A stretch of 64,000 nucleotides of DNA, taken from Salinibacterium sp. ZJ70. Its GTDB lineage: Bacteria > Actinomycetota > Actinomycetes > Actinomycetales > Microbacteriaceae. Both the position numbers and the translations under genes were made by a program. This document shows, piece by piece, positions 29,983-33,813 of this stretch. The notes beneath the pieces were generated by a model. That model made no database searches. It saw nothing but the letters and a program-made list of their open reading frames with translations, and was not told the origin of the DNA. The stretch spans positions 1,860,001 through 1,924,000 of the forward strand of contig NZ_CP061770.1 in assembly GCF_011751865.2 (NCBI RefSeq), given 5' to 3'. Within the stretch, counting starts at the first letter, position 1, and each line of letters begins with the position of its first letter.

Positions 29983-31602
29983 CTAACCAGCGCGGTCGAG
30001 GCGCTCGATGAGCTTGTGCGGGAACCCCTCGCGGCGCATGCGCTCCTGCACGGCACGGTGGTCGTAGGCCACGCGCTCGAAGCGCACCGTCGACGCCTCG
30101 ACATCGAGCACGGCGTACGCGGCGCCCGGCATGCCGTCGCGTGGCTGCCCGAGGCCACCGGGACACACGAGCGCAGCGTGCTGGCGCCGGAGATCGAGGA
30201 TCGTCCGCGGGTCGTGGAACTCGCCGGGTGCCCCGCGCAGCCGCCGCACCCAGGCGCCCGCGATGTGGGTGTTGCCGTGGAGGCACACCCGGATGCCGTC
30301 GAGCTCGAGGGCTGCGAGGTTGTCGTCGGCGGTCATCCGATACACGTAGGCATTGAAGCGCTCAGGGTCGATGGGCGCGCCGTGCAGCGCGAGCCAGCCG
30401 TCGGCGTCGTGCAGCTCACGCGGCAGCGACTCGAGCCACGCGCGTGCCGCCGCGTCGAGCCGCCCCCGCGTCCAGTCAGCCGACCAGCGCGCGTCCGGGT
30501 TGAACGTCGCCGGGGTGTCGGCGATCGCGGCGAAGTCATGATTGCCGAGGATGCCGACCACCCGAGGGTCGCCCGCGAGTCGGTGCACCACCTCCGCGGG
30601 ATCGGGCCCATATCCGACGGAGTCCCCGAGCACGACGATCCGTGAGGCCGTGCGCGCGTCATCGGTGTCGAGAACCGCCTCGAGGGCGTCGAGATTGGCG
30701 TGGACATCGGCGATGAGGAGCACGGGGCCGACTGCTGCTGCCTGCGCAGGTGCGGATGACTGAGCGAGACCGCGTGGTTCCCCGGCCTCGAACGAGACAG
30801 CCTCGGGAGCACCCTCAGCCGGTTGCGGTGACGAAGAGATCAGCGGCCGCGTGGGGGTCGGAACATGCCGCGTGAGCGCTGCGGCCACGCCGAGGCTCAG
30901 ACCGTTGCCGCTGCCCCGACGCAGCGAGTCGGCGAGGTCGCGCCCTGCGACGAGCTGGGGTCGCCGGCGCATCTGCTCGCGGAGCTCGGTTCCGAGCGCC
31001 TCGCCATGCAGCGGAGTGAGAGAGGGGATGCGCCTGCCGAGCACGTCGAGCGCGACGGCGAGGCCGATGCCGTCATCCCAGGGATAGAGATCATCGTCGA
31101 GGTAGCGCAGAGGGCCGTCGTCGACCCACGCGAAGTTCGACAGCCCCTCGTCGAGGCGCCAGCCCTGCAGCGCGGCATCCAGGTAGATGCGCGTGAAGTC
31201 GGCGCAGAAGTCGCGCCAGCGGTCGATGATCTCGGTATCGCTCCACAGATGAAGCGGCTTCAGACGGCTCGTCGCGACACCCAGACGGCTGCGCTCCCCA
31301 CCCTCGATCACGAACCACGTGCGATCGGGCGCGTAGCAGCCGAGCGCGCGCTCTCGATCGATGCGGGCGGCGACCCAGCGGTCGACATCCGTCGAGGCGA
31401 GTTCGAACTCGACGCGTCCCTTGACGACGACGCGCGCCGATGCCCAGACGGTCGTGGAGCTGCGCCCGGGGAAGTCTGACGAGCGAGCGGTGGTCTGCGG
31501 GTGCTGGAGCGCCTCGACGATGAGCGCGCGATCGAGCACGCGCGTGGGGTCGACAGCCGCGACGACTCTCACAGTGTCGTCGGGTCGGCGCGGCTGTCTC
31601 AC
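29983..31602 (-). CDS. Kinase-fold / metallophosphoesterase fusion protein
   Basis: A 539-residue two-domain protein. Residues 40-200 resemble a lipopolysaccharide-kinase/APH-like fold: a candidate ATP lysine (K61 in VVVKGRVEF), a catalytic-loop-like LDEGLSNFAW (150-159), and YLDDDLYPWDD (168-178) where the metal-binding DFD would be. After a 50-residue linker, residues 295-539 form a calcineurin-like phosphoesterase with all five motifs: DVHANL, GDSVGYG, GNHD, LHGAP, GNTH. GTG at 31602 starts 10 nt after the Roadblock gene stop. Co-location with a GTPase/Roadblock module suggests reversible phosphorylation signalling, which is inferred. Confidence 0.8.
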   Translation of the reverse strand: MRQPRRPDDTVRVVAAVDPTRVLDRALIVEALQHPQTTARSSDFPGRSSTTVWASARVVVKGRVEFELASTDVDRWVAARIDRERALGCYAPDRTWFVIEGGERSRLGVATSRLKPLHLWSDTEIIDRWRDFCADFTRIYLDAALQGWRLDEGLSNFAWVDDGPLRYLDDDLYPWDDGIGLAVALDVLGRRIPSLTPLHGEALGTELREQMRRRPQLVAGRDLADSLRRGSGNGLSLGVAAALTRHVPTPTRPLISSSPQPAEGAPEAVSFEAGEPRGLAQSSAPAQAAAVGPVLLIADVHANLDALEAVLDTDDARTASRIVVLGDSVGYGPDPAEVVHRLAGDPRVVGILGNHDFAAIADTPATFNPDARWSADWTRGRLDAAARAWLESLPRELHDADGWLALHGAPIDPERFNAYVYRMTADDNLAALELDGIRVCLHGNTHIAGAWVRRLRGAPGEFHDPRTILDLRRQHAALVCPGGLGQPRDGMPGAAYAVLDVEASTVRFERVAYDHRAVQERMRREGFPHKLIERLDRAG

Positions 31603-31612
31603 CCCGCTGTTC

Positions 31613-32020
31613 TCACGGTACGAGCGGCTCGATCTGGGGAGCCGCCATGCGAACGGCCGACCAGCCGAGGCCGAGGTTGGCACGGCGTCCGGTGATGAGC
31701 ACGACGAGCGCGTTCGGCTTGTTGGGCAGCACGAGCATGAAGTGGTACGTGTGCTCGGTGGTCATCTGGATCTCGCGCGTGAGGCGGCGAGGCGGCACTC
31801 CGCGCTGCTGCGCGATGAGCGTCTCGACGGCGCTCACCGTGCGGCCGCGGAACATGTCGACGGCGGCTGCCGCGACGGCGTCCAGGTAGCTCTGCGTGAA
31901 GTACGGGACGTTGTGAGTGGCGGCGAGCAGGAGGCCCGACTCCAGGTCGACGACAGCGAAGCCGAGACCGTCGTCGACGGAGTTGAGAACGGTGCGGCAG
32001 TGGTCTTCGAGTGCGCTCAT
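31613..32020 (-). CDS. Roadblock/LC7-like protein (second copy)
   Basis: A 135-residue alpha/beta protein resembling the Roadblock/LC7 (MglB/CvnB-like) fold: GFAVVDLESGLLLAATHNV, then the helix YLDAVAAAAVDMFRGR, then EHTYHFMLVLPNKPNALVVLITGR. Roadblock proteins regulate small Ras-like GTPases as GAPs or scaffolds. ATG at 32020 follows GAAAGAG. It sits between the other Roadblock gene (86-nt gap) and the kinase/phosphoesterase gene (10-nt gap). The assignment rests on fold pattern and neighbours, not on a search. Confidence 0.7.
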   Translation of the reverse strand: MSALEDHCRTVLNSVDDGLGFAVVDLESGLLLAATHNVPYFTQSYLDAVAAAAVDMFRGRTVSAVETLIAQQRGVPPRRLTREIQMTTEHTYHFMLVLPNKPNALVVLITGRRANLGLGWSAVRMAAPQIEPLVP

Positions 32021-32106
32021 GTACGGGCTCTTTCTTCGATGTGCGAACCGTCGCCTGAGTTCGCCGGGGAAACCGGGTTCGGCGATTCGGGCGCGCGGGC
32101 GGGTGG

Positions 32107-32604
32107 TTACGGGTAAAGCGACTGAGTCGTCTGGAGGACGGGTGCCTCCGGGACGATAGGAGCACTGTATCGGGCGGCGACCGCCGCGGAGGGTTGCCGC
32201 GCGAGGGCCGCGAGAGCGTCGCCGATCTCCTGTGTGGCGAGACGCACGAGTGAGAGCGCCGTGCCGAGGTTGTCACCCATGCGGAAGTGCGCGGCGACGA
32301 CGTACGGCTGATCGGAAACGCGCATCTGCACTACGAACCCCTGGGTCGCCTGCACGATGACGGCCTCGCCGTGCCCGGCGCTGAGTTCGGCGACGACGGC
32401 CTCGCCGAGCGCCTGCACCGAGCTCGAGATGCTCGCGAAGCGTCCGTCGCTCTCGCCGCCGGCAGGCGTGCGGGTCACCTCGAAGCCGTCATCCGAGAGC
32501 AGCAGGGCGAGGGCGAGCGATCCTGCGCTCTGACGGATCCGTTCGAGCGCGGCGGTGCCGATGGTGACGATCTCAGGGGCGAACCTCTCGTCGGCGAAGG
32601 TCAT
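32107..32604 (-). CDS. Roadblock/LC7-like protein (first copy)
   Basis: A 165-residue Roadblock-like protein next to the GTPase gene. The core has LALALLLSDDGFEVTRT, SISSSVQALGEAVVAELSAGHGEAVIVQATQGFVVQMRVSD and FRMGDNLGTALSLVRLATQEIGDALAAL, the alternating strands and long helices of Roadblock/LC7 proteins. Its ATG overlaps the GTPase stop by 4 bp (32601-32604), so the two are translationally coupled, as in MglA/MglB and CvnB/CvnD pairs. Confidence 0.75.
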   Translation of the reverse strand: MTFADERFAPEIVTIGTAALERIRQSAGSLALALLLSDDGFEVTRTPAGGESDGRFASISSSVQALGEAVVAELSAGHGEAVIVQATQGFVVQMRVSDQPYVVAAHFRMGDNLGTALSLVRLATQEIGDALAALARQPSAAVAARYSAPIVPEAPVLQTTQSLYP

Positions 32605-33161
32605 GCCGTTTCCTTTCCGTAGATCAGGGCTCGTGCGTCGATGCCGGCTGCGAGCACCGAGAGCATCGTCGTGAGGTCACTACGCCGGCGGGCGTCGACC
32701 GTGAACACCGGCGCAGGGAGTTCGGGGAACCGTGCCGCAAGCAGGCGGCGGTAGTCCTCGAGCGACGGCCCGGATGCGAGGTCACTGCGGGTGATGCCGA
32801 CGACCACGGCGCCTCGGCGTCCGATCTCGGCGAAGTCGGTGAGGAAGGAGTCGAGGTCGCCGAGCGGGTCGGGCGCGTCACCGCGCACGAGCACGAGCAG
32901 TCCGACAGCACGCTGGGCGAGGATCTTCCACATGAAGGCGAACCGTCGCTGCCCGGGGATGCCGTACAGCCGGAGCTTCTCGCGGGGCGCGAGTTCGATC
33001 TCGCCGTAGTCGAGGGCGACCGTCGTGGTCTCCTTGTCGACCACGTCGCGTTCGGTGTTGCGCGCCTCGGTTGTGACGATCGGGATGTCGCTCACCGCCG
33101 AGATGGCGGTGGTCTTGCCTGCCCCCATGGGGCCAGCAACGAGGATGACGTGCTCAGCCAT
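32601..33161 (-). CDS. Small Ras-like GTPase (MglA/CvnD-like)
   Basis: A 186-residue P-loop GTPase. The G1 Walker A is GPMGAGKT (10-17). The G3-like motif is YGIPGQRRFAFMW (66-78), characteristic of actinobacterial conservon GTPases. The G4 NKxD position reads TRSD (124-127), so guanine specificity could be modified. The C-terminal DARRRSDLTTMLSVL takes the place of G5. ATG at 33161 overlaps the upstream winged-helix-like gene by 8 bp. Partner Roadblock proteins are encoded directly downstream. Confidence 0.85.
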   Translation of the reverse strand: MAEHVILVAGPMGAGKTTAISAVSDIPIVTTEARNTERDVVDKETTTVALDYGEIELAPREKLRLYGIPGQRRFAFMWKILAQRAVGLLVLVRGDAPDPLGDLDSFLTDFAEIGRRGAVVVGITRSDLASGPSLEDYRRLLAARFPELPAPVFTVDARRRSDLTTMLSVLAAGIDARALIYGKETA

Positions 33162-33813
33162 GCGCGACGACCCCCAGGCGCGAGCGCAGGCGCCCGAAAA
33201 GCCCACGGCGCTCACGTCCCACCTGGCGGGCGCGACGTGTCGCGTCCTCCACGATGGGCGGAGGGACGACCGAGCCCTGGCTCGCCTCAACGCCTCCGGC
33301 GAGAGCGAGCGCGTTGATGACCGCCTGAACTTCGGACTGGTCGGCGTCTGCGAGCGCCGCCGTCTCAGCGACGGTCAGTGCCTGACCGCTGCCGAGTGCC
33401 GCGAGGATGCGGATCTCGCTGCCGGAGTGCGTGAGCTGGGTGAGATTGGGCCAGCGTGTGAGGCGATAGCGATCCCCGGCGCGGAGCCAGAATGCAGGGC
33501 TGCCGCCGAAAGCCGCACGGCTGATCTTCCAGAGCAGCGGGTCGATGGGCGACCATTCGACCCACGGGAAGAGCTCCTGGTCGGGGTCGATCTGCTGCGA
33601 GTAGAGCGCAACGGTGCGCGGCGAGAGCGGCAGGGCGTCGAGCGGTCGGTCGATGTAGAACCGCGAGCGTGGGAAGTCGATCCACAGCGTCCCGAAGTCG
33701 GGTGAGGTCACTGCGAGTGCCATGGGCTGCTCGAACGACCGCATCGAGTTGATCGCTCCGGTGACGCTGGCCCATCCATCGGTGGTCGGCGGCACCGCCC
33801 CCTGCATCGACAT
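33154..33813 (-). CDS. Winged-helix-like protein, first gene of GTPase/Roadblock module
   Basis: A 219-residue protein I cannot assign to a named family. The N-terminal two thirds are mixed beta/alpha (LAVTSPDFGTLWIDFPRSRFYIDRPLDALPL). Residues about 130-185 look like a winged helix: SEIRILAALGSGQALTVAETAALADADQSEVQAVINAL. The tail is basic (RRARQVGRERRGLFGRLRSRLG). By position it would match DUF742 (CvnC) of Streptomyces conservons, but that is only suggested by order. ATG at 33813 follows AGGGGGG. It overlaps the GTPase gene by 8 bp and heads the operon. Confidence 0.7.
   Translation of the reverse strand: MSMQGAVPPTTDGWASVTGAINSMRSFEQPMALAVTSPDFGTLWIDFPRSRFYIDRPLDALPLSPRTVALYSQQIDPDQELFPWVEWSPIDPLLWKISRAAFGGSPAFWLRAGDRYRLTRWPNLTQLTHSGSEIRILAALGSGQALTVAETAALADADQSEVQAVINALALAGGVEASQGSVVPPPIVEDATRRARQVGRERRGLFGRLRSRLGVVAHG

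Follow-up and report, generated by a model that had tools for sequence, protein, structure and literature searches.

A module of GTPase and Roadblock proteins lies in Salinibacterium sp. ZJ70, an actinobacterium whose 2.84 Mb genome is a single contig. Five minus-strand genes, here g1 to g5, span positions 29983-33813 of the 64,000-nucleotide stretch that was analysed (the window; positions 1,860,001 to 1,924,000 of NZ_CP061770.1), with overlaps of 8 and 4 bp and gaps of 86 and 10 nt between neighbours, coordinates on which an earlier sequence-only reading of this DNA was exact. The first, g1 (33154..33813, minus strand), encodes a 219-residue winged-helix-like protein of a Group-3-like MglA module, and its match to TrmB (E 0.0018) falls below the cut-off. 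It is followed by g2 (32601..33161, minus strand), a small GTPase of 186 residues with the motifs GPMGAGKT at G1, PGQ at G3, a G4 without lysine and DAR at G5. The product of g3 (32107..32604, minus strand), named RblA, is an MglB-like Roadblock/LC7 protein that scores 17.5 bits against Robl_LC7, below the cut-off of 23, and that has two proteobacterial orthologues above it (38.7 and 38.3 bits). The product of g4 (31613..32020, minus strand), named RblB*, is a highly conserved special Roadblock type. Finally, g5 (29983..31602, minus strand, GTG start) fuses a protein-kinase-like domain (residues ~1-245) to a calcineurin-like metallophosphoesterase (~291-539). The folds proposed in the sequence-only reading are thus borne out for the GTPase, kinase and phosphoesterase: g2 is an MglA-type GTPase, while g3, through its orthologues, is a Roadblock-type protein, and the same holds with less certainty for g4; the winged helix of g1 has sub-threshold matches only. 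Taken as a whole, the set is a genuine variant within a known class of GTPase systems and occurs in two phyla.

The N-terminal domain of g5 is protein-kinase-like and has no Pfam match. It was modelled separately, since matches to the phosphoesterase half filled a structure search with the whole model. The model of the kinase domain alone (predicted local distance difference test score 90, predicted template modelling score 0.86) finds kinase-like folds in all of the 50 rows listed from each of two structure searches, with AceK as the top Foldseek match (E 1.1e-4) and Bud32/PRPK as the top VIA match. The C-terminal domain matches a Pfam metallophosphoesterase family over the cut-off, and the structure search agrees on the fold. 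In the 37-row g5 alignment and profile, made of the window protein and 36 of 79 database matches, K61, D151, N156, D169 and D170 are present in all 37 sequences and E84 in 36; we take these to be the VAIK-type lysine, alpha-C glutamate, catalytic Asp...Asn and DFG-like aspartate of a kinase. Likewise, D299, H301, D327, N354, H355, H407 and H446 are found in 37 of 37, presumably within the metal-site motifs DxH, GD, GNH, H and GHxH of a phosphoesterase. On its face, g5 is an enzyme that could attach phosphate groups as well as take them off. A 98%-identical copy is recorded from Salinibacterium sp. ZJ77.

Full-length g5 is rare in the family of its host and extends well beyond it. A single-protein search matched eight of 60 family genomes, at full length in the own genome only; the profile finds the full protein in two of 349 Microbacteriaceae (the own genome, G000, and G106) and, in the class of G359 (inferred to be Gammaproteobacteria), in 14 of 369 genomes. 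The sequence-only reading was right that a GTPase/Roadblock module stands with such a fusion, and the two are conserved together well beyond this genome. In Microbacteriaceae, where it had suggested looking for the five families together, the full set is rare (2/349), and ten of the 12 linked cases found fall in the class of G359. Among 14 genomes carrying loci found by their GTPase, one has full-length g5 and two more match the phosphoesterase half only. Across 386 genomes of the phylum the only full-length match is the own, and four others cover the phosphoesterase half. In these four (L101-L104) the half-length frames match at E<=1e-60, and two contain stop codons; they are possible kin of the source of the fusion.

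Where g5 occurs, it tends to sit beside g4. The gene order of G106, g1-g2-g3-g4-g5, is that of the window, and g5 adjoins g4 in 12 of 16 g5 genomes, namely these two and ten of the 14 class genomes, in all of them within 175 bp. In eight of these ten the two genes converge tail to tail and in two they are co-directional; in G398 the contig ends past g4. With eight of 12 linked pairs convergent, the linkage does not depend on a common transcript. Only in G359, G395, G540 and G647 is g5 not beside the module. Conversely, g5 is absent from the examined stretch at all ten GTPase loci whose second Roadblock gene is of the ordinary type, with the proviso that these were found by their GTPase and the g5 loci by g5 (L061-L072 were chosen for holding it). 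As the RblB* counts below bear out, g5 is genetically tied to RblB* in two phyla. When neighbouring genes were clustered across 38 loci, no partner beyond g1-g4 proved common to many g5 loci; the largest other groups are a response-regulator type (six loci), an ABC-transporter-like group (five) and a protein termed c7 (four). The last stands beside the module at L069:9895-11541, L078:9256-10854, L079:7322-8923 and L080:16698-17669, is 532-548 residues long in three of the four, and has no Pfam match in the two copies scanned (L078, L079).

Pfam gives no match for window g4 or one orthologue, and the Roadblock assignment comes from profiles. Against the PDB the g4 profile has a single match at E<=10, a weak one (E 0.014) to the Roadblock protein MglC; hhalign aligns g4 to the ordinary module RblB at 95% probability and to RblA at 7%; and database names for its relatives read Roadblock/LAMTOR2. 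Mean identity over 11 loci is 63% for g4, higher than that of the GTPase (47%) or g5 (37%). In 142 sequences (22 taken from the window and the other loci, the rest being the top 120 among 1941 database matches), the invariant positions include Y40, D47, G59, E66, T91, H93 and W120, and H36, T42, Y45, R58, R73, T88 and T110 are near-invariant; the motif reads HxxPYFTQxYxDAVAAAAVxMFRG.

Since each of the 12 g4 genes behind the RblB* profile adjoins g5, genomes with unlinked genes provide the fair test. Genes beside g5 score 235-252 bits, other RblB* 179-238 and ordinary module Roadblock proteins at most 28. RblB* was called above 150 bits; no match in the class or family lies between 67 and 179 bits, and six class genomes at 58 to 67 bits were left uncounted. 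All 16 g5 genomes hold RblB*, the four with unlinked genes among them. In the class it is present in 17 of 369 genomes: all 14 with g5 and three of the 355 without (G541, G602, G725). When the ten genomes that supplied the profile are excluded, RblB* is found in 4/4 g5 genomes, all with unlinked genes, versus 3/355 without g5 (p 5e-8). In the family it occurs in three of 349 genomes: G000, G106 (three copies) and G130, which has no g5.

The core module also occurs without g5. The own genome carries, at 936 kb and 1272 kb, two further modules (g1-like gene, GTPase, RblA, RblB), both lacking it. A GTPase of the g2 kind is present in four of 60 sampled family genomes and nine of nine genus genomes, the own genome counted in both. 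Among the matches listed, a scan of named genomes (591 candidate stretches) yields at least 15 loci, eight actinobacterial and seven proteobacterial, including Schumannella, Curtobacterium, Homoserinibacter, Stenotrophomonas and Thiomargarita. The order g1-g2-g3 recurs in 11 of these 15; of the rest, two read g2-g3-g1, another starts with the Roadblock genes and the last is cut by a contig edge. Because this order recurs and g5 adjoins g4 as often as it does, the five-gene grouping is not chance. Near the 936 kb module (L044:14001-16337, ~941-943 kb) stand two RblA-like genes and one RblB-like gene with no GTPase, and the g1 paralogue at L044:10211-11218 has an N-terminal DUF2510 domain that is not found in window g1. 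Two GTPase genes per module occur in L031 (Thiomargarita) and L066 (G626).

By profile, g2 resembles Rab1B (3.9e-7) and MglA (7e-4) in the PDB, with ATP_bind_1 as its sole Pfam match over the cut-off; its motifs read GITRSD at G4, without the lysine of [NT]KxD, and VDAR at G5. A non-canonical G4 and a DAR in G5 are shared by the Group 2 and Group 3 MglA proteins (PMC4316618). In that account a Group 3 system unites an MglA homologue, one or two homologues of MglB and an uncharacterised protein that has a winged-helix and a receiver-like region; nearly all are found in beta- and gammaproteobacteria, and Stenotrophomonas is one of the genera named. The window fits by gene content, with a sub-threshold winged helix and a g1 that lacks a long N-terminal part (see below), and it has both motif features. 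The GTPase tree comprises 39 sequences, 33 rows including Stenotrophomonas and six conservon GTPases (CvnD, taken as P-loop open reading frames beside DUF742 matches in two genomes), and leaves out Groups 1, 4 and 5. The six are set apart by a branch with 100/100 support, and the window GTPase lies on its other side, sister to that of G106 (99/92) within a 12-row actinobacterial clade (100/99) among proteobacterial rows; Rhizobacter, Tahibacter and Stenotrophomonas form long branches of unsure placement. DUF742 has no match in the own genome at E<=1e-3 and none on g1-g5 at E<=1. As gene content and motifs fit, the GTPase falls outside the conservon clade and the genome has no DUF742 match, the core module is by sequence Group-3-like and not a conservon. 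The sequence-only reading, which had called it conservon-like, was right about a GTPase/Roadblock module and wrong about that frame. It had also held that g5 replaces a sensor kinase. None is found among the immediate neighbours scanned, and since Group 3 systems as described have no histidine kinase, g5 is better seen as an addition.

The surroundings of these genes offer some functional clues. RblB* loci without a GTPase (L073-L076, L086-L088) have another phosphatase gene within 1 kb in three of seven cases, among the part of the neighbours scanned: a PP2C (L075), a SpoIIE-type (L088) and, by eye, an ApaH-like (L074) phosphatase. Many PP2C- and SpoIIE-type phosphatases act on proteins. Tandem RblB* gene pairs with no GTPase within the stretch examined stand at L075:4204-5061 and L076:8655-9678. 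A methyl-accepting chemotaxis protein, a CheW-like protein and a response regulator adjoin two of the three class modules that have RblB* but not g5. Pilin-like genes lie near L035 and L063, the latter also near a PilS-like kinase, and G647 has both kinds within ~7 kb of g5; PilM is present in the own genome, and the same profile also matches nine of 14 control genomes. A study of Snodgrassella reports that soft-agar spreading and colonisation change with the allele of an orphan mglB gene in a Group 3 species (PMC11112851). A pilus link of the module is suggestive only. In the window itself, the module is flanked upstream by a UPF0182 gene and downstream of g5 by a tRNA-Met gene and then a PPOX-type oxidoreductase; promoter and terminator scans gave nothing above chance.

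The reading we favour, to which we give about an even chance, is that the five genes form a Group 3-type MglA switch served by a dedicated enzyme of reversible phosphorylation, g5, which would act on a protein of the module. The kinase domain would phosphorylate and the phosphoesterase domain dephosphorylate this protein, most likely RblB* or its complex with g2 and g3; candidate residues of RblB* are Y40, T42, Y45, T88, T91 and T110. The phosphate state may then change the binding or activation of the GTPase by the RblA/RblB* platform and so shift the GTPase cycle, by analogy with Myxococcus, where the second Roadblock protein MglC binds MglB. Output would be transcriptional, by way of g1, or run through a polar machine (type IV pili, for instance), or both. 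More tentatively, g5 may be a dedicated phosphate writer and eraser for a bacterial Ras-like GTPase system, of an unprecedented kind, whose kinase and PPP-like phosphoesterase domains set RblB* and, by way of it, the GTPase; RblB* would then be a general phospho-responsive adaptor, coupled elsewhere to PP2C-type phosphatases or chemosensory systems. Several observations weigh against the favoured reading. In the window protein and in 11 of 36 aligned relatives, Asn takes the place of the first histidine of GHxH, and the phosphoesterase fold is Ap4A-hydrolase-like. Distance-matrix co-evolution does not single out the RblB*-g5 pair, whose co-variation is weak. RblB* is also recorded in Marinobacter and many others, without g5 shown there, and since it is far wider than g5 the dependence looks one-way.

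Could the substrate instead be a small molecule? In that case the kinase would phosphorylate, and the phosphoesterase hydrolyse, a nucleotide or metabolite that the GTPase/Roadblock module senses or responds to. This is a possibility, if a rather doubtful one: the top structural match of the kinase domain is AceK, a protein kinase/phosphatase, in one search and Bud32/PRPK in the other, and two RblB* genes adjoin phosphatases of the PP2C and SpoIIE types. It is unlikely that g5 serves as a scaffold or pseudo-enzyme bound to the module, its domains sensing nucleotides with no catalysis. The substituted metal-site histidine would suit such a role, as would the fact that no activity is known for g5, whereas at the other checked catalytic positions, in either domain, 33 to 37 of the 37 aligned sequences agree.

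The remaining explanations concern the origin of the set. A Streptomyces-type conservon that lost its sensor kinase would explain why the same kinds of protein, GTPase and Roadblock, and the DAR motif at G5 recur in an actinobacterium; it is very improbable, and both gene content and the tree refute it: the genome has no DUF742 match, the GTPase stands outside the conservon clade, and there are two Roadblock proteins plus a winged-helix-like protein as in Group 3. Scarcer still is the case for g5 as an unrelated neighbour. Its presence in so few Microbacteriaceae and its absence from both paralogous modules of the own genome might have suggested this, and the adjacency over two phyla together with RblB* in every g5 genome refutes it.

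If the phosphorylation reading is true, a kinase/phosphoesterase fusion that accompanies an ultra-conserved Roadblock type in two phyla would be an input other than two-component systems, to which the bacterial Ras-like GTPases of PMC4316618 are mostly tied. It would give Group 3 MglA systems a concrete enzyme candidate and adds a kinase-like family without a Pfam model. In line with the claim that no system with this exact set has been described, searches of the open-licence literature brought up none, nor any that combines a kinase or phosphoesterase with Roadblock/MglA. The recurrence of the pairing in distantly related bacteria thus points to a mode of control for such switches that the papers listed there do not describe.

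Among known systems, Group 3 MglA is closest: its clusters, too, combine a conserved winged-helix protein with an MglA-type GTPase and one or two Roadblock proteins of the MglB type, and the G4/G5 motifs agree. It differs in its almost exclusively beta/gamma-proteobacterial range, in that the main text of PMC4316618 contains no phosphatase or phosphoesterase and neither RblB* nor g5 was found there, and in the length of g1. Window g1 lacks a long N-terminal part that is present in six proteobacterial g5 loci (219-222 residues in the window and G106 versus 331-342, ~110 longer), as does the 227-residue g1 of Stenotrophomonas. Actinobacterial conservons (CvnA-D; Group 2 MglA) likewise are signalling clusters of GTPase and Roadblock proteins, but the window has no adjacent histidine kinase or DUF742, belongs to another GTPase clade, and contains a second Roadblock protein and g5. 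MglA/MglB/MglC of Myxococcus xanthus also pairs one GTPase with two Roadblock kinds, and the g4 profile matches MglC, which binds MglB without the part of MglB that binds MglA (PMC7949163); that match is weak, however, and the abstract of the study names no kinase/phosphoesterase protein. As for g5 itself, the Sphaerobacter thermophilus metallophosphoesterase 3rqz, whose title names no function, differs in having 239-245 residues and no kinase domain. The isocitrate dehydrogenase kinase/phosphatase AceK resembles g5 in assigning both activities, in g5 predicted, to one polypeptide. In AceK one kinase-fold site serves both reactions, whereas g5 has a separate phosphoesterase domain.

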